Source of the DNA: Bacteroidota bacterium
Lineage (GTDB): Bacteria > Bacteroidota > Bacteroidia > Chitinophagales > Chitinophagaceae
DNA length: 59,046 bases
Reading direction: 5' to 3'
Assembly: GCA_014190475.1 (NCBI GenBank)
Contig: BJGL01000005.1
Span: 1-59,046, forward strand
Both the position numbers and the translations under genes were made by a program. The first letter of the stretch is position 1, and each line of letters starts with the position of its first letter. The notes under the pieces were generated by a model, which saw only the letters and a list, made by a program, of their open reading frames with translations, did no database searches and had not been told where the DNA came from. Shown piece after piece: positions 2,462 to 52,071 of this stretch.

Positions 2462-3304
2462 CTATGAATGATACTTTATCAGTCCTTGCATGGGGTTACG
2501 AAGAATGCTACCGAGCTCAAATTCATAATGTGCACAGAGTTGTTTTACCACATCACTGAAAATAGAGGCCACTCCCCCTGTGAAATGCAAGGGGAATTTC
2601 CATACCTCCGGATAACGACAGAGATGCTGAAAGAAGAAATCATTCAGCCCATCCTCGAGAATATTTTCAATCATGTAATGCCCCCTGTTCTCGGCAAGAA
2701 AAGTTGTAAACGTAGCTAAATACCGGTTAGGCAGTGGCTTCTTGTAAACATTTTCAAGAATCTCCGCCGGCGTTGTGGTATAGCTAAGATCAAAGCGACC
2801 CCTTAGTTCTTCGTCAAAAATCCCATAGAGATAATACTGGATTACTTTTTTGCCCAAATACGCCCCACTCCCCTCATCGCCCAGTACATAACCCAAGCCA
2901 GGACTATTTTTAATAATTTTCTTTCCGTTGTAAAAACAAGAATTAGAACCCGTACCCAAAATACAAGCAATCCCCTTTTCTCTACCACACAACGCTCGGG
3001 CAGCTCCCATAAGATCATGTGTAACTTCTATCTTGGCCTCGGGAAATAAAGCCTCGAGGGCTTTCCGTACAATTTTCGCATTTGAAGGGTTAGCACAACC
3101 TGTGCCGTAGTAAAATATTTCTTGAATATTCGCCTTCTTTAATCGAGGCAACAACTCTTGTTGAAGTAGTGAAATGATTTCTGGAGCACTTAAAAAATAG
3201 GGGCTAATACCAGCCGTGAGCAGGTTTCGTTTCTTAGTCCCTTCAAGAAGGCACCATTCCGTTTTTGTAGCACCGCTATCTGCAATCAATTTTACCGTAG
3301 CCAT
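2462..3304 (-). CDS. BadF/BadG-type amino-sugar kinase (probable MurNAc/GlcNAc kinase, MurK-like)
   Basis: A 280-residue ASKHA-fold kinase. The phosphate-1 loop is LIADSGATKTEW (about 6-17), the phosphate-2 region is GIACILGTGSNSCFYNG (about 110-126), and GLGYVLGDEGSGAYLGKKVI (about 135-154) is the BadF/BcrA family signature; FTGGVAS near the C-terminus is the adenosine loop. Members next to murQ phosphorylate MurNAc and/or GlcNAc, so a MurK role is the best reading; GlcNAc kinase is the alternative. It is the first gene of the kinase-murQ-unknown operon and is divergent from the S41 protease at 3377, with an inverted repeat in the gap. Confidence 0.85.
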   Translation of the reverse strand: MATVKLIADSGATKTEWCLLEGTKKRNLLTAGISPYFLSAPEIISLLQQELLPRLKKANIQEIFYYGTGCANPSNAKIVRKALEALFPEAKIEVTHDLMGAARALCGREKGIACILGTGSNSCFYNGKKIIKNSPGLGYVLGDEGSGAYLGKKVIQYYLYGIFDEELRGRFDLSYTTTPAEILENVYKKPLPNRYLATFTTFLAENRGHYMIENILEDGLNDFFFQHLCRYPEVWKFPLHFTGGVASIFSDVVKQLCAHYEFELGSILRNPMQGLIKYHS

Positions 3305-3342
3305 TGCTCAATCAACACAAAATAGGTTCAATGCAAATAAGT

Positions 3343-3358
3343 TAACTTGCACAAGTTA
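3343..3358. promoter_or_regulatory. Inverted repeat, candidate operator between divergent genes
   Basis: TAACTTG-CA-CAAGTTA: 7-bp perfect arms around a 2-nt spacer in the 72-nt gap between the kinase start (3304) and the S41 protease start (3377). Symmetry and location fit a dimeric repressor site that could control both directions. No cognate regulator is encoded nearby, so function is inferred. Confidence 0.4.
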
Positions 3359-3376
3359 CGCAAAATATAGGCCGGA

Positions 3377-4894
3377 ATGGTAAATAAAAAACGAGATATT
3401 GCGCTACCAATAATCATAGCACTTTTATTAATTCTTGTATTATTTGCCGGCCAATTTTTCTTTCCAGCCATTCATCTTTTTGGGAACAATAAGCAATCAA
3501 CCTACCAGCAAGTTTTAGAACTGGTCAAAAACAAATATGTAGATCCTGTAAACCTAGATAGCATAGAATCGGTTGCAGTGGATGAGTTGCTAAAAGAATT
3601 AGATCCCCACTCCAACTATCTCACCCCAATTGAAGTGACGGAGTCAGCTGAATTACTGAAAGGTCATTTTGAAGGCATTGGTGTGGAATTCAGTCTTTTC
3701 AACGACACGGCAACTATCACTTACGTAATCCCAAACGGTCCCGGCGAAAAAGCAGGTATTCAACCGGGGGATCAACTAGTAAGTGTCAATAAGCATTCTC
3801 TTATCCGGAAAAATATTTCCACGGATACAATTCGTTCCTTAGTAAGGGGAAAGCGAAATTCAATAGTGAACTTAACGCTAGTTAGAAATCAACAATCCTT
3901 ACAGTTAGCAGTTAAACGAGATCGCATACCGTTACCTGCAATTGAGGCCAAATACCTCCTTGACTCCAAAACTGGCTATATCCGCTTGGAACGCTTTTCT
4001 GAAACCAGTTATGAGGAATTCATGCAAGCGGTAGAAATGCTAAAAAAACAAGGAGCCCAACAACTTATTCTTGACTTGAGAGGAAACGGTGGCGGATTAT
4101 TGAGTGAAGCAGTAGACATTGCGGATGAATTTCTTGATCAGGATAAGCTTATTGTTTATACAGAAGGAAATAAAATTGGCAAACAAGAGTACCGCTCTCG
4201 CAGACCCGGACAATTTGAAAATGGAAAAATATTCCTGCTCATCGATGAATTTTCAGCCAGCGCCAGTGAAGTCTTAGCTGGGGCCATTCAGGATTGGTGT
4301 AGAGGCAAAATAATTGGCCGAACCTCCTTCGGTAAAGGGCTGGTGCAAGAGGAGTACAATCTTTCAAACGGTGGAGCATTACGGCTTACTGTAGCCCGGT
4401 ATTACACACCTTTAGGAAGATGCATCCAGTTGCCCTATCAGCAAATGGATACGCTTCAAAAGAACCGCTATTTTATTACCCCCTGCAAGGACACACTTCG
4501 CGCAGAGAATGGTATTACCCCCCATATTAAAATTCCTTCCACAACCGATACTACCCTGCTTGCATCAGTAACTATCATGAACGCCTTATCTCGTATCAAT
4601 CAGTTTTCTTTTGAGTACTATCAACAGAATATTTCAAGGCTTACTAAAAAAAATAGCCCCCAATCCCTGCTTACCGATAAGGAGTTATTGAAAGATATTT
4701 GGGAGAAATGGATACGCTCCGAAAAAATAGCGACTACTTCACCCCTCGCTTATTCGTCCGTTGAAAAACAGTTTTTAACAGAAAGAATCCTAGCCACCAT
4801 TGCAAGATACAAGTGGAGAAGCAATGGCTATTACCAGATTCTAAATGCAAACGACAGTACACTGCGTGTAGCCATGAAACTAATCAATCAATAA
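3377..4894 (+). CDS. S41 family C-terminal processing peptidase (CtpA-like)
   Basis: A 505-residue periplasmic protease with an N-terminal signal anchor (about 9-30), a PDZ domain (about 90-170) and the S41 catalytic domain. The motif EFSASASEV places the nucleophile at Ser295 with Asp306 (AIQDW) and the general base Lys320 (SFGKG), the same spacing as in E. coli Prc. Such enzymes trim or degrade envelope proteins. The C-terminal 100 residues are outside the catalytic core and unassigned. The stop overlaps none of its neighbours; the next gene begins 2 nt later, so the two are probably co-transcribed. Confidence 0.92.
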   Translation: MVNKKRDIALPIIIALLLILVLFAGQFFFPAIHLFGNNKQSTYQQVLELVKNKYVDPVNLDSIESVAVDELLKELDPHSNYLTPIEVTESAELLKGHFEGIGVEFSLFNDTATITYVIPNGPGEKAGIQPGDQLVSVNKHSLIRKNISTDTIRSLVRGKRNSIVNLTLVRNQQSLQLAVKRDRIPLPAIEAKYLLDSKTGYIRLERFSETSYEEFMQAVEMLKKQGAQQLILDLRGNGGGLLSEAVDIADEFLDQDKLIVYTEGNKIGKQEYRSRRPGQFENGKIFLLIDEFSASASEVLAGAIQDWCRGKIIGRTSFGKGLVQEEYNLSNGGALRLTVARYYTPLGRCIQLPYQQMDTLQKNRYFITPCKDTLRAENGITPHIKIPSTTDTTLLASVTIMNALSRINQFSFEYYQQNISRLTKKNSPQSLLTDKELLKDIWEKWIRSEKIATTSPLAYSSVEKQFLTERILATIARYKWRSNGYYQILNANDSTLRVAMKLINQ

Positions 4895-45930: not shown

Positions 45931-46494
45931 TCAAATCTCGGAATTATTCTTCATTAATTGAAATACCACGGCCGCAGCAATCAGTTGGATACAACCCATG
46001 CTCATAAACAGTAAATCAAAAGAATAGTAATAAGCCAACAAGCCGCCCACGGCAAATGCAATTCCAGATACTAATTGTGATTGCCCAGTAGAGAGCCCCC
46101 ATGCATAGGTATCATGGTCTTTAGTTAAACTAGCTGCAAACAAAGCATCCCAAACCGGTGTGCCTATGGCTTCAGCAATACCTAAACCAATTTGTACAAA
46201 AAAAAGTTCGAGGGGTGTTTCAACCAGCAAATAACAAAACGTCAATATTGCGTTTAGCAGGTACCCGATAAAGAGCAATTTCGTTTTATACTTTTTACGA
46301 TTGACTAGCTTTCCTACCAGTATGTAAAAAAGGCCTGTACAAATTAAGTAAGCCGACCATGCCCAAGTAATATCCAGCAAATCTCCCCCAATTCGTTCCG
46401 TGAAAATTGCATAGAGCGGCCCCAGCATTCCTTCGCCAAAATACCAGATATTGGCGCCCCACAGGAGCATTTTAGTTGTTTTGCTGAGTTTCAT
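45931..46494 (-). CDS. Half-length (six-helix) MFS transporter protein
   Basis: 187 residues with six predicted membrane helices (about 9-30, 40-62, 72-91, 95-113, 135-157, 160-180). The loop after helix 2 contains GKLVNRKKYKTK, a variant of MFS motif A, so it corresponds to the N-terminal half of a normal 12-helix transporter. No in-frame or frameshifted second half exists in the flanking 30 and 64 nt. It may be a true short family that dimerises, or a truncated gene. It starts downstream of the 174-residue gene and is followed 30 nt later by the secreted protein. Confidence 0.72.
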   Translation of the reverse strand: MKLSKTTKMLLWGANIWYFGEGMLGPLYAIFTERIGGDLLDITWAWSAYLICTGLFYILVGKLVNRKKYKTKLLFIGYLLNAILTFCYLLVETPLELFFVQIGLGIAEAIGTPVWDALFAASLTKDHDTYAWGLSTGQSQLVSGIAFAVGGLLAYYYSFDLLFMSMGCIQLIAAAVVFQLMKNNSEI

Positions 46495-47130: not shown

Positions 47131-47135
47131 TTGGG

Positions 47136-47209
47136 TCGGGACGACTAGATTCGAACTAGCGACCCCTTGCACCCCATGCAAGTGCGCTACCGGGCTGCGC
47201 TACGTCCCG
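47136..47209 (-). tRNA. tRNA-Pro (GGG anticodon)
   Basis: On the minus strand the acceptor CGGGACG pairs with CGTCCCG, the D-arm is AGCGCAGCCCGGTAGCGC, the anticodon stem CTTGC/GCAAG encloses ATGGGGT (anticodon GGG), and the T-arm is CTAGTTCGAATCTAG. Discriminator A. CCA is not encoded. Confidence 0.96.
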
Positions 47210-47237
47210 TTCCAAGGGGGAATTTCTCCAGGGGAGG

Positions 47238-47245
47238 CAAATTTA
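47238..47245 (-). promoter_or_regulatory. -7 promoter element for tRNA-Pro
   Basis: TAAATTTG on the minus strand, exact consensus, 28 nt before the tRNA 5' end; no TTTG at the expected distance. Confidence 0.45.
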
Positions 47246-47263
47246 GCGCTATTTTTCGGATTT

Positions 47264-47292
47264 TTTGGATCGGAGAGTAAGCTTTACCTTTG
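47264..47292 (+). promoter_or_regulatory. -33/-7 promoter of the pyrC'-glycosyltransferase operon
   Basis: TTTG (47264-47267), 17-nt spacer, TACCTTTG (47285-47292), then 7 nt to the ATG at 47300. Both elements match the Bacteroidota consensus with the same spacing as the tRNA-His promoter. The implied leader is extremely short. Confidence 0.6.
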
Positions 47293-47299
47293 TCTCTTA

Positions 47300-48565
47300 A
47301 TGAAGCTACTCATTAAGCAAGCCCTTGTTGTTGACCCAAATTCTCCCTATAACAACAAAAAGGTTGATCTTCTTATCGAAGACGGTATCCTCACTAAGAT
47401 TGGAAAAATAGATACAGCTGGTGCTGACAAAACAGTCAGCAGCCCTCACCTATGCATCTCTCCTGGCTGGGTCGATTCATTTGCAAATTTTGCTGACCCG
47501 GGTTACGAACACAAAGAAACATTAGAATCCGGTGCGGCGGCTGCAGCGCAGGGAGGTTTCACGGATGTGCTTATAATACCCAACACGAATCCGGTATTGC
47601 ACAACAAGGCAGGTGTTGAATATATTTTACACAAAAGTCAGTCTCTTCCCACCACCATTCATCCAATTGGGGCAATTACCAAACAAGCGGAGGGAAAAGA
47701 GTTAGCAGAGATGTATGATATGTTCGAAAATGGAGCGGTTGCATTTTCGGATGGACAGCGATGTATTCAATCTGCTGGTCTGCTTATAAAAGCACTTCAA
47801 TACGTCAAAGCCATAGACGCTGTTGTAATTCAAATACCCGACGATTATAGCATTAATCCAAGCGGACTTATTAATGAAGGAATCACTTCAACACAACTCG
47901 GCTTACCTGGCAAACCTGCGATAGCTGAGGAATTAATGGTTGCACGTGATCTTGCTTTATGCAACTACGCTGAATCTAAACTACATCTAACAGGCATTAG
48001 CACTGCTAATTCCTTACAATTAATACAAACGGCCAAGAAAGAATCAGTATCGGTAAGCTGCTCAGTTACTCCCTACCATCTTTTCTATAGCGACGAAGAC
48101 CTTGCCAATTACAATACCAATCTCAAAGTGAATCCGCCTCTTAGAAGTAAGAAAGACAGGGATTCATTAAGAGTGGCTGTTCAAGCGGGGCTGATTGATT
48201 GTATTGCCAGTCACCACCTCCCGCATGAATCAGATAGCAAAATAGTAGAGTTTGAACATGCCCAATACGGAATGATTGGACTTGAAACAGCCTATGCTGT
48301 AACCAACACTTCAATTGAAAATCTTACTCCTCTGCGAACTGCAGAATTATTTTCACTCACCCCCCGTAAAATTTTTGGGTTAGATTCACCCACCATTGAT
48401 ATCAATCAAAGGATTTGCTTTACACTTTTTGATCCAACCATCGAATGGACACCAACAAAAGAAACGTTACAATCTCGTTCATCCAACACGCCGTTCCTTG
48501 GAAAGAAATTGCAAGGAAAAGTAATTGGTACGCTACATCACAACGCGATTAGCCTCTTTGTATGA
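47300..48565 (+). CDS. Dihydroorotase homologue, predicted catalytically inactive (PyrC'-like)
   Basis: 421 residues with the full amidohydrolase/dihydroorotase layout: ISPGWVDSFANFADPGYEHKETLESGAAAAAQGGFTDVLIIPNTNPV matches the class I enzyme. Nearly all metal and substrate residues are changed: the D-x-H-x-H motif is D59-S-F61-A-N63, the substrate Arg of 'HFR-PG' is Ala65, the 'HxED' His is Gln178, the 'HxST' His is Gly232, and 'TDHAPH' reads S-H305-H-L-P-H. Asp151 remains (FSDGQ) but would have no partners. In Pseudomonas, an inactive PyrC' supports aspartate transcarbamoylase; here the neighbours are glycosyltransferases. It starts a five-gene overlapping operon. Confidence 0.85.
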   Translation: MKLLIKQALVVDPNSPYNNKKVDLLIEDGILTKIGKIDTAGADKTVSSPHLCISPGWVDSFANFADPGYEHKETLESGAAAAAQGGFTDVLIIPNTNPVLHNKAGVEYILHKSQSLPTTIHPIGAITKQAEGKELAEMYDMFENGAVAFSDGQRCIQSAGLLIKALQYVKAIDAVVIQIPDDYSINPSGLINEGITSTQLGLPGKPAIAEELMVARDLALCNYAESKLHLTGISTANSLQLIQTAKKESVSVSCSVTPYHLFYSDEDLANYNTNLKVNPPLRSKKDRDSLRVAVQAGLIDCIASHHLPHESDSKIVEFEHAQYGMIGLETAYAVTNTSIENLTPLRTAELFSLTPRKIFGLDSPTIDINQRICFTLFDPTIEWTPTKETLQSRSSNTPFLGKKLQGKVIGTLHHNAISLFV

Positions 48566-49038
48566 ATCTAAAGCGCCTTACCTGGAGTTTTACAACCGCC
48601 TTCCTGATGATGGCTATAAGCTGGTTAGGCTTTTTAAACGATATACCGAATCCAACTACCGCGCAACTTTTGGTATATGGCTTCTATGCGCTCAGCACTT
48701 GGTTCTTACTTTTTTTTAATCGAAGTGAAAGTCAGGCCTTTAAGGACTTTTTCCAGATTGGATTTAGACACTTTATTTTAGTTACCCTACTGATGGCATT
48801 GTTCTCCTATATCTTTATTCAATTACATCCCAACTTGATAGAAGATTCAGCGAAACAGCTACGATTGGCCATTCAAGCTTCAAATAATAGAACGCCGGCC
48901 GAAATTGAAAGAGATGTTAAACTCTTTATTGAAGGATATCCCACTGCGATGGTATCCCGAACAATTTTCGGATATTTGGTAGTAGGGAGTTTGGTTACAG
49001 CCATCAGCTCCTTCTTGCTTACGCTACAAAAGAAATAA
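48562..49038 (+). CDS. DUF4199-family membrane protein
   Basis: 158 residues with four membrane helices (about 6-25, 32-51, 66-87, 130-153) and a long loop (about 90-127) containing AIQASNNRTPAEIERDVKLFIEGYPT, the DUF4199 pattern. Function unknown. It overlaps the preceding gene by ATGA and the following gene by TAATG, so translation of all three is probably coupled. Confidence 0.8.
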   Translation: MNLKRLTWSFTTAFLMMAISWLGFLNDIPNPTTAQLLVYGFYALSTWFLLFFNRSESQAFKDFFQIGFRHFILVTLLMALFSYIFIQLHPNLIEDSAKQLRLAIQASNNRTPAEIERDVKLFIEGYPTAMVSRTIFGYLVVGSLVTAISSFLLTLQKK

Positions 49039-49979
49039 TGGATCTATCCTTAGTCATACCCTTGCTAAATGAAGCTGAGTCACTTCCCGAGTTGACCCAT
49101 TGGATTGAAAAAGTGATGAATGAACATCGATACTCCTATGAGATCATTTATGTGGATGACGGAAGTGAGGACGACTCCTGGCAGGTTATTCAAACACTTC
49201 AGCAAGAAAACCCAAACGTAAAAGGCATAAAGTTTCAACGTAATTATGGTAAGTCTGCGGCACTGCAAGTAGGCTTTACTGCGGCCACTGGAGACATTGT
49301 AGTCACAATGGATGCGGACTTACAAGACTCACCAGAGGAAATTCCGGGACTACGCCATATGATTTTAGAAAAAGGGTATGATCTAGTAAGCGGATGGAAA
49401 AAGGTTCGTTATGATAATACCCTCACTAAAAATATCCCCTCCCGGTTCTTTAATGCCGTTACGCGAAGCATGTCGGGCATTCACTTACATGATTTTAATT
49501 GCGGATTAAAAGCGTACCGAAAAAATGTAGTTAAAAGTATTGAGGTATATGGAGAAATGCATCGTTATATACCCGTACTTGCAAAATGGTCAGGCTTTAA
49601 AAAGATCGGAGAAAAAGTGGTAGAACACCGGCGGCGGAAACATGGCATTTCCAAATTTGGTTGGGATCGCTTTGTTAATGGGTTCCTTGACCTATTATCC
49701 ATATCATTTGTTGGAAAATTTGCCAAACGCCCAATGCACTTTTTTGGCTTATGGGGATCGCTTTGTTTTTTGATTGGATTTTTTGTTGCAGGATTTTTAG
49801 TGCTGTCTAAAATAGTTGACGCGAACTTTGCATTAACCAACAGACCTGGCTTCTATATTGCGCTTACTTTATTGGTAATTGGTATGCAATTATTTTTAGC
49901 TGGATACTTGGGCGAACTTATTGCCCGAAACTCCCCTACTCGCAATCAGTACCTGGTAGAAACTCAAATTGGTTTTTAA
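49038..49979 (+). CDS. Glycosyltransferase family 2, membrane-bound (DPM1/GtrB-like)
   Basis: 313 residues. The GT-A domain has LSLVIPLLNEAESLPEL, the nucleotide-sugar motif YVDDGSEDDSW, FQRNYGKSAALQVGFTAATGDIVVTMDADLQDSPEE with the metal-binding DAD, and KWSGFKKIGEKVVEHRRRKHGISKFGW. Two C-terminal membrane helices (about 236-257 and 272-296) follow, as in enzymes that transfer sugar from a nucleotide donor to polyprenyl phosphate. It probably makes a lipid-linked sugar for surface glycans or lipid modification. Confidence 0.92.
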   Translation: MDLSLVIPLLNEAESLPELTHWIEKVMNEHRYSYEIIYVDDGSEDDSWQVIQTLQQENPNVKGIKFQRNYGKSAALQVGFTAATGDIVVTMDADLQDSPEEIPGLRHMILEKGYDLVSGWKKVRYDNTLTKNIPSRFFNAVTRSMSGIHLHDFNCGLKAYRKNVVKSIEVYGEMHRYIPVLAKWSGFKKIGEKVVEHRRRKHGISKFGWDRFVNGFLDLLSISFVGKFAKRPMHFFGLWGSLCFLIGFFVAGFLVLSKIVDANFALTNRPGFYIALTLLVIGMQLFLAGYLGELIARNSPTRNQYLVETQIGF

Positions 49980-51112
49980 TGTCCGGCATTGTAATCATAG
50001 GTCCGGCGCATCCGCTTCGGGGTGGTGGCATTGTAAGTTTTAATGAACGATTAGCCTACGCCTTTCAAGAAGCAGGTCACCCTTGCGAAATCTGGTCATT
50101 TTCGTTGCAATACCCAGGCTTTTTATTCCCTGGAAAAACGCAGTTTGTAAATACGCCCCCTCCTGCAGGTTTAACAATCCGCACGTTGATTAATTCAATC
50201 AATCCCTTGAATTGGATAAAAGTGGGCTGGCAGCTGAGAAAGAAAAATCCATCATTAATTATTGTACGATTTTGGATTCCCTTTATGGGGCCTTGCCTTG
50301 GCACCATTTTACGATTGGTTAATAAAAGACAAACAAAAGTTATCTGCATTGCAGACAATATAATCCCGCACGAGAAAAGACCCGGCGATCAGCTATTCAC
50401 TCGATATTTTGTAAGAAGTTGTGACGGCTTTGTGACCATGAGTAAATCGGTGTTTAATGACTTAAAAAAAATAGCCCCTGATAAACCCGCAAAACTCACC
50501 GCGCATCCGTTATATGATCAATTTGGTCCTCCGCTACCAAAAAAAATAGCGCGCGAAAAATTAGCCTTAGCAAGCCAGGATAAGATCATTTTGTTCTTTG
50601 GCTTTATCAGACCCTACAAAGGATTAGACCTTTTGCTTACAGCCATGCGGGAGCAACCGCTTCAGTCGATGGATGTAAAATTGCTGATTGCCGGAGAATT
50701 TTATGAGCATGAAAGCCGCTACCACCAGTTAATTCAAGAGTACCAATTACAAAAAAGAGTTATACTCCATACAAATTTTATTCCTGACGAAGAAGTTGGA
50801 CTTTACTTGTCTGCAGCGGATGTAATTGTACAACCCTATAAAACAGCCACACAAAGTGGCGTAACCCCTCTTGCCTATCATTTTGAAAAACCTATGATTG
50901 TTACCAATGTAGGGGGTCTCCCAGAAATGGTACCGCACGAAAAGGCAGGTTTAGTATGCGAACCTACTCCAATAGATCTAGCAAGAAGTATTGAGGCCTT
51001 TTATAAAAAGGATGCCTCCTATTTTACGGCAGGCATACAAGAGGAGAAAAAGAAATACGAATGGTCCACAATGATTGAAACATTATTTACGTTGCATAAA
51101 GAGCTCAAATAA
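49979..51112 (+). CDS. Glycosyltransferase family 4 (GT-B fold)
   Basis: 377 residues without membrane helices. The N-terminus has GPAHPLRGGGIVSFNERLAYAFQEAGH (acceptor domain, with the GG motif); the C-terminal domain has KIILFFGFIRPYKGLDLLLTAM (about 197-218) and SAADVIVQPYKTATQSGVTPLAYHFEKPMIVTNVGGLPEMV (about 278-318), containing the donor-binding region; the usual E-x7-E acidic pair is not obvious (the position reads Q-S-G-V-T-P-L-A-Y). Its start shares TAATG with the upstream stop. It may add a further sugar to the product of the upstream GT2. Confidence 0.9.
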   Translation: MSGIVIIGPAHPLRGGGIVSFNERLAYAFQEAGHPCEIWSFSLQYPGFLFPGKTQFVNTPPPAGLTIRTLINSINPLNWIKVGWQLRKKNPSLIIVRFWIPFMGPCLGTILRLVNKRQTKVICIADNIIPHEKRPGDQLFTRYFVRSCDGFVTMSKSVFNDLKKIAPDKPAKLTAHPLYDQFGPPLPKKIAREKLALASQDKIILFFGFIRPYKGLDLLLTAMREQPLQSMDVKLLIAGEFYEHESRYHQLIQEYQLQKRVILHTNFIPDEEVGLYLSAADVIVQPYKTATQSGVTPLAYHFEKPMIVTNVGGLPEMVPHEKAGLVCEPTPIDLARSIEAFYKKDASYFTAGIQEEKKKYEWSTMIETLFTLHKELK

Positions 51113-52071
51113 TGGCTAACATGCGCTACACCTTACCTCTACTTCTGTTTTTTAATGTCATGGGGATGCTTAGGATTTCGGCGCAAGTAAATCCCAGCCT
51201 TATATCTGCCAGCGCCTTAAAACAATTACAAACCAAAGAGGACACATTAAAAGATTATGCATTTTATCTGACTACGGACAGTTTACCGGAGGAAAGGATG
51301 ATCGCAGATAGTGTTTTTACCCGGACTTTAGTTCGTGCTTTACAAATCCCCCACTCTTTCTATTACCCCTTTGATTCCGTTTTAGGAATTTCAAAAAAAT
51401 ATGCCCCCGATTCCAGTTTTAGAATTATTACTTGGAATCTTCAGTATAACGATTATTATAACCGACAGCGAGGAGCCATACAAATGAATACGAAAGATGG
51501 CAAACTCAAACTATTTCCACTGCGAGATGCCTCAGAATTTACCGACCATCCAGAGGACTCGATACGAACGGCAAAAAATTGGATTGGTGCTCTTTACTAT
51601 AACATCATTAAAAAAGAGGATCAGGGGAAGTCTTTCTACACTCTTTTTGGATTAGATCCCAATAATGCAAAAAGCACGCTCAAATGGATGGAGGTGCTTC
51701 ATTTCAATTCCCAAGGAGAACCCATTTTTGGTGGCCCCTTTTTCAGCTATGAACGAGATAGTCTTCCTAAAAAAACACAGCTACGCATCAGCCTTGAGTA
51801 CAAAAAGAACGCACGAGTGCTTATGGATTATATTCCGGATTTGGATTTGATTTTGGTCGATCATCTTATTTCAGAGAATGATGATGCAGAGAGTCCTTGG
51901 ACCTTAGTACCCGATGGGGATCAGGAGGGCTTTAAATGGGAAAAGGGGAAGTGGATACACATCAACAAGGTATTCACCCAAAAACTACAGGACGGGAAAG
52001 CGCCGCGTGAACAGCCACTCTTTAACCAGCCCGGTCAGGAGAAAATACCAGCTACGAAAAAAGGGAACTAA
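51112..52071 (+). CDS. Secreted protein of unknown function at the operon's end
   Basis: 319 residues with a signal peptide (1-24, ending RISAQV) and no other membrane segment. Repeating beta-rich blocks such as FRIITWNLQYNDYYNRQRGAIQMNTKDGKLKLFPLRD (about 102-138) and NWIGALYYNIIKKEDQGKSFYTLFGLDPNNAKST (about 160-193) suggest a beta-sandwich or porin-like periplasmic protein. Homologues appear confined to Bacteroidota as far as I recall. It shares TAATG with the glycosyltransferase upstream and so should be co-expressed. Confidence 0.8.
   Translation: MANMRYTLPLLLFFNVMGMLRISAQVNPSLISASALKQLQTKEDTLKDYAFYLTTDSLPEERMIADSVFTRTLVRALQIPHSFYYPFDSVLGISKKYAPDSSFRIITWNLQYNDYYNRQRGAIQMNTKDGKLKLFPLRDASEFTDHPEDSIRTAKNWIGALYYNIIKKEDQGKSFYTLFGLDPNNAKSTLKWMEVLHFNSQGEPIFGGPFFSYERDSLPKKTQLRISLEYKKNARVLMDYIPDLDLILVDHLISENDDAESPWTLVPDGDQEGFKWEKGKWIHINKVFTQKLQDGKAPREQPLFNQPGQEKIPATKKGN

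Follow-up and report, generated by a model that had tools for sequence, protein, structure and literature searches.

The window, a stretch of 59,046 nucleotides from a member of the Chitinophagaceae (Bacteroidota bacterium, GCA_014190475.1, contig BJGL01000005.1), contains a forward-strand ORF (47300-48565) that starts with ATG and encodes 421 aa free of internal stops. It is the first of five same-strand genes, packed with ends overlapping by one to four bases. It is followed by genes for a DUF4199 protein (48562..49038; 4-base overlap; Pfam PF13858, 34.6 bits against a cut-off of 32.3), a family 2 glycosyltransferase (GT2; 49038..49979; PF00535) and, with an overlapping start, a group 1 glycosyltransferase (49979..51112; PF00534). 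The run ends with a 319-aa protein known from its ORF coordinates (51112..52071), which at E 0.001 matched nothing in Pfam, NCBIfam or PADLOC. An earlier sequence-only reading had placed the ORF at the head of a glycosyltransferase operon, and the tight run with DUF4199, GT2 and the group 1 enzyme agrees with it. Since a tRNA-Pro (GGG) gene, found at gathering score, occupies 47134-47209 on the opposite strand, only 90 bases (47210..47299, +, delimited by the tRNA scan and the sequence) are left as promoter room before the ATG. There, TACCTTTG begins 15 bases ahead of the start codon, and we take it to resemble the Bacteroidota promoter consensus TAnnTTTG. No RNA element was found upstream of the gene, tRNAs alone having reached gathering scores, and a link with defence systems was dropped, as PADLOC gave no match. 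Further upstream (45931-46494, -) lies a gene for a 187-aa MFS-type protein of about half the length of its family profile, possibly a shortened transporter.

The protein encoded by the first gene is, as had been proposed from the sequence, a homologue of class I dihydroorotase (DHO); it comes nearest to the DHO of Aquifex. With phmmer, residues 1-413 of 421 align with the Aquifex DHO (E 1e-83), indicating full-length homology, and the best solved relatives are the Aquifex chains 4bjh, 3d6n, 6gde and 1xrf (E about 1e-83). The NCBIfam model TIGR00857 (pyrC_multi) is matched with 337.2 bits, over its cut-off of 279.05. An AlphaFold model built with 30 aligned rows as input has a mean pLDDT of 81.7; its top Foldseek hit is 3d6n_A, the Aquifex chain from the complex of DHO with aspartate transcarbamoylase (ATCase) (E 3.3e-38), and VIA-align superposes it on 4bjh_A, likewise an Aquifex chain from that complex, over 400 residues (Z 46.6, rmsd 2.9). 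Other class I DHOs follow close behind (2z00, Z 45.0), so the fold match to Aquifex alone shows no complex. From homology, alignment and model, we refer to this protein and its relatives as pseudo-dihydroorotases (pseudo-DHO; PyrC'/PyrX-like).

According to PMC3880350, the ligands of the Aquifex DHO are His61, His63, Asp153, His180 and His232, with Asp305 next nearest to zinc. In an alignment of 70 sequences, window protein included, all six metal and catalytic positions are substituted in the window protein: Phe61 and Asn63 stand for His61 and His63, Gly152 for Asp153, Ile179 for His180, Gly232 for His232 and His305 for Asp305. In addition, Ala65 replaces Arg65. The protein thus keeps none of the six residues expected of a catalytic class I DHO (HxH, Asp153, His180, His232, Asp305). 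Nearly all catalytic residues had been said to be lost on first reading; the loss stands, and is strengthened, while the one residue believed to remain does not survive. Phe61/Asn63 for HxH, Ala65 for the Arg, Gly232 and His305 for the Asp all hold in the Aquifex register. Asp151, taken for a retained ligand, pairs with Aquifex Asp152, one off from Asp153, and Gln178, placed at a metal His, pairs with Asp179, the true counterpart of His180 being Ile179.

The loss of ligands recurs across the class, assigned from named relatives as Bacteroidia. We inspected 90 class rows, the window protein among them, selected (not at random) by their scores and coordinates in the match lists. The HxH pair (His61 and His63 together) occurs in none; 36 rows keep no ligand, 45 keep one, 4 keep two and 5 keep three. 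Every one of the six ligands occurs somewhere among these rows, with a maximum of three per row. All six are present in the 20 homologue rows from outside the class. A fewest-changes count on the larger of the two trees described below (67-row tree) gave 3 to 13 changes per site; since such counts fit both late losses and chance regains, the idea of parallel ligand loss was dropped.

Coding sequences are nevertheless well preserved. In four of six pairs of close orthologues dN/dS is 0.032-0.053 (identity 85-89%), and dS is saturated in the other two. Of the six places once held by ligands, five lie at the 79th to 94th percentile of variability within the clade (408 columns, entropies computed from 64 of the 90 class rows); the sixth, that of Asp153 and now mostly filled by Gly, is only at the 36th. 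Gly86, Pro279, His306, Pro308, Lys314 and other residues are invariant in these 64 rows. The low dN/dS together with the variable ligand positions indicates a protein under selection, though not for its former active site. This upholds the earlier proposal of a selected pseudoenzyme rather than a decaying gene, with which the lack of HxH in all 90 rows also agrees. Two low-confidence loops of the model (184-204 and 308-324) were considered as a contact surface for the ATCase catalytic subunit PyrB and rejected, their conservation being no higher than average (29% and 35% of windows of equal length, respectively, are as conserved).

The search for a second pyrC and for pyrB, suggested along with the first reading, found both in the same genome. 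The second DHO (448 aa; contig C15, L002 1420-2766) scores 611.8 bits against a PRK09236 cut-off of 535 and is of the type of Porphyromonas gingivalis 2gwn (E 3e-138). It keeps the His63, His180, His232, Asp305 and Arg65 positions, with Gln in place of His61. This Gln is also found in 2gwn and in 12 of 25 rows of the 448-aa type, and the Gln-bearing protein is the single DHO listed in 2 of the 9 genomes of the class that have PyrI. The 448-aa DHO is probably catalytic. An SDDG motif is present in it and in L104, where 23 of the 25 rows of the type have a lysine motif. PyrB is encoded on another contig (C66; 326.5 bits, over the TIGR00670 cut-off), with a PyrR gene preceding it, so that pseudo-DHO and pyrB are on different contigs. 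We were not able to find PyrI or an E. coli-type DHO (TIGR00856) in this genome, which accordingly has PyrB without PyrI.

The pseudo-DHOs form one clade, with an SH-aLRT of 99 in a tree of 67 of the 90 class rows and all 20 outside rows (67-row tree), and with 100/100 in a tree of 25 of the class rows, a Rufibacter plasmid row and 12 of the 20 outside rows (26-row tree). Their nearest neighbours are intact DHOs from other classes of the same phylum. The outside rows make one group in the 67-row tree (91) and two in the 26-row tree, which is the better supported of the two trees. In 7 of the 20 outside loci, pyrR and pyrB lie directly beside the DHO gene; for the five outside rows nearest to the pseudo-DHOs (99/94, 26-row tree), pyrB is absent from the stretch fetched. 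Among relatives, 93 of 97 genomes, the own one included, have a match to the window protein at E <= 0.001, a count that includes other DHOs. For the separate collection scan, a family-level alignment (A2) served as query. The simplest history would be that a DHO partner of ATCase was inherited and turned into a pseudoenzyme within the class. We also placed five PyrX-like genes of alphaproteobacteria, each no more than 3 kb from pyrB, and in the unconstrained 26-row tree they group apart from the pseudo-DHOs. Despite this topology, we dropped the claim of an origin separate from alphaproteobacterial PyrX, because a joint clade was not rejected by the AU test (p 0.519; joint tree 0.84 higher in score), a result that fits one origin of pseudo-DHOs as well as several.

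PyrI, a protein unrelated to pseudo-DHO, was found in 9 of 247 genomes of the class, encoded beside pyrB. In none of the nine does a match reach the level of pseudo-DHO (best E 2e-18 to 3e-12). Among PyrI-free genomes, the class I match reaches E <= 1e-30 in 213 of 238 and E <= 1e-75 in 194. The counts 213, 194 and 25 (below) were made by hand from the match table of the 247 genomes; the 213 include at least one intact DHO (G164, of Hymenobacter type and beside its own pyrB), and the 18 other genomes between E 1e-75 and 1e-30 had a row-level check only if they are among the 90 rows. The association is strong (Fisher p 6e-9, uncorrected for kinship), and as the PyrI genomes come from just four families, the exclusion probably reflects few events. 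We also considered whether a catalytic DHO had replaced pseudo-DHO at its locus in the PyrI genomes, and found none in 9 of 9, their DHO being on a different contig from GT2 or hundreds of kb distant.

No class I match was found in 25 PyrI-free genomes. Three of these (G420, G454, G484) also have no PyrB match, two (G408, G257) have weak carbamoyltransferase matches only, and eight are less than 90% complete. The remaining 12, of good quality, have PyrB and neither partner: G107, seven of family f107 (G423, G456, G486, G513, G540, G564, G588), three of f114 (G440, G471, G499) and G469. A partner therefore seems to be dispensable in places. The counter-pattern, in which no clear PyrB accompanies the class I match, occurs in G402, G521, G573, G589 and G594, of which G589 and G594 are less than 80% complete and G402 has a weak match (3.5e-37).

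The type of PyrB changes together with these patterns. Relative to the PyrB of the window genome, and among rows fetched by score or choice (non-random), identity is 61-80% where the genome has a class I match (33 rows), 38-48% where it has neither partner (10 rows) and 30-34% where it has PyrI (9 rows). The 33 rows are 37 less the self row, two rows of G164 (47%, with an intact DHO) and one of G519, which was left out (PyrB 71%; genome 67% complete, no class I match). Outside the class, identity is 58-62% (8 genes, one fetched twice), these being the PyrB of the pyrB-adjacent DHO loci and of one further outside genome. It is 45-52% with the PyrB beside the five alphaproteobacterial PyrX-like genes and 39% with that of Bacillus.

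Some PyrB genes call for separate mention. The divergent PyrB (38-48%) of G107, G423, G440 and relatives gives the impression of a catalytic subunit adapted to working without a partner. G469 (L084) has a PyrB of the PyrI type (34%) with neither PyrI nor pseudo-DHO, and G524 (L076) has one (33%) besides an ordinary second PyrB, with no PyrI match; both could be contaminations. In the Hymenobacter plasmids L283 and L284 (both 2998-4275), the gene after pyrB encodes a class I DHO that is intact, with all six ligands, and the G164 gene (L127), also beside its pyrB, is 95% identical to this plasmid DHO. The pair is possibly a different, and perhaps mobile, ATCase-DHO cassette. Long open frames in G165 and G226 were considered as PyrB-DHO fusions and excluded, the PyrB match being absent there.

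The first reading had suggested that, given the operon, the protein might have a partner other than ATCase or a moonlighting role. In one form of this idea pseudo-DHO would serve the glycosyltransferases, perhaps by acting as a scaffold or a sensor that ties the supply of pyrimidine (UDP-sugars) to glycosyl transfer. The overlapping gene run of the window speaks for this, as does GT2, which lies close downstream on the same strand at 36 of the 40 loci compared within the order. The same gene order appears in another family, on a 12.5-kb plasmid of Rufibacter tibetensis (L282 3001-7236) with pseudo-DHO, two DUF4199 genes, GT2 and another glycosyltransferase (from 12 plasmids fetched of 295 records), and G440 and G499 lack both GT2 and pseudo-DHO. 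The latter two have PyrB, and we count them against an ATCase partner. On the other hand, of 28 chosen genomes 26 retain GT2, and among these are twelve that lack pseudo-DHO, namely the 9 with PyrI and the PyrB-poor G420, G454 and G257. Moreover, outside the order the linkage is mostly not seen: GT2 is found within about 3 kb of flanks in 5 of 20 other class loci and not in 15 (for L195, the flank is under 1 kb on one side), and G116 keeps both genes on separate contigs. The persistence of GT2 where pseudo-DHO is gone, and the way in which pseudo-DHO follows the type of PyrB, speak against a different partner, and we consider a role in glycosyl transfer improbable.

About equally improbable is that the protein is a working amidohydrolase, metal-free or using other residues, whether its substrate be carbamoyl aspartate or a different compound. 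A DHO that has lost its zinc residues need not be inactive: dihydroorotase activity is reported, in a paper on COG0523, for a PyrC paralogue lacking the conserved zinc residues (PMC2770081). In our rows His306, adjoining the lost Asp305, is invariant. However, variability at five of the six ligand positions is unlike a selected active site, Arg65 is lost and the genome has another DHO. Still less credible, with hardly any probability left to it, is a disappearing remnant, that is, a redundant DHO gene carried along by its position in the operon. Such a remnant would explain the drift of most catalytic positions and the several lineages with no match. Against it are the low dN/dS in four of six pairs, the class I homologues at E <= 1e-30 in 213 of 247 genomes (a number that takes in at least one intact DHO) and the retention of pseudo-DHO also where GT2 is not nearby.

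Because pseudo-DHO follows the type of PyrB and the absence of PyrI, and is tied less closely to GT2, ATCase is the best partner that we can infer. We propose, with a probability of roughly 80%, that the pseudo-DHO is a non-catalytic structural subunit, of the PyrC'/PyrX type, of a class A2 ATCase (PyrB). By analogy, the window protein would bind PyrB physically, in a dodecamer, and be needed for ATCase activity, while having no catalysis of its own. An ancestral DHO, which outside the class is intact and partly encoded in a pyrR-pyrB-pyrC arrangement, would, inside the class, have been deprived of the metal site, presumably after another DHO of the 448-aa type carried the reaction. The pseudo-DHO would have been kept because PyrB needs the protein for assembly or stability, and lineages using PyrI would have a different PyrB and do without it. 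A broader version holds that, across the class, PyrC' and PyrI can stand in for each other as the non-catalytic partner of ATCase, and that PyrC', starting from an intact ancestral enzyme, lost the metal site stepwise in several lineages, so that the class would show all grades between enzyme and scaffold; it is more tentative and rather less probable than its opposite.

Family models call such proteins dihydroorotase, and metabolic models of many genomes in the class would be misled by the name. Should the proteins prove to be ATCase subunits, the first committed step of pyrimidine synthesis would run on a pseudoenzyme-dependent complex, and the exclusion between PyrC' and PyrI would offer a natural test of the role of the non-catalytic partner. 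Members with 0 to 3 ligands could trace how an active site is lost under retained structural selection.

An inactive DHO as ATCase subunit is already known. What is new, unless covered elsewhere, is a class-wide clade in Bacteroidota, encoded away from pyrB and excluding PyrI: no pseudo-DHO is named in this phylum in the titles and abstract openings listed by the literature searches, which mostly leave out subscription papers. In the class A2 ATCase of Pseudomonas, an inactive DHO (pDHO, PyrC') is described as a structural subunit (PMC7053772), and the comparison with it made on first reading is supported. Compared by description, both are class I DHO homologues of about 45 kDa without the zinc ligands and with PyrB as expected partner. 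Unlike the Pseudomonas system, the window gene lies away from pyrB, heads an operon of DUF4199, GT2 and another glycosyltransferase, and its product is a predicted partner of PyrB. In Sinorhizobium, disruption of the pyrB-adjacent DHO gene of S. meliloti leads to pyrimidine auxotrophy, and it has been proposed that PyrB needs the pseudoenzyme PyrX for its activity (PMC5929573). The apparent counterpart in S. meliloti Ak57, identified beside pyrB by position and annotation, keeps 0 of 6 ligands, as the window protein does, and its neighbour PyrB is 49% identical to that of the window genome; unlike the window gene, it comes directly after pyrB, and in the unconstrained tree it sits in a clade of its own (100/100), although a joint clade was not rejected (AU p 0.519). 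The class A1 ATCase-DHO dodecamer of Aquifex aeolicus is the nearest system by sequence and fold and shares the ATCase partner, but its DHO has all ligands and is reported active in the complex (PMC3880350). Finally, PyrI of class B ATCase is a non-catalytic partner of PyrB to which the pseudo-DHO is predicted to be analogous: it never occurs together with a pseudo-DHO-level match in the 247 genomes, and the genomes that have it differ in carrying another type of PyrB.
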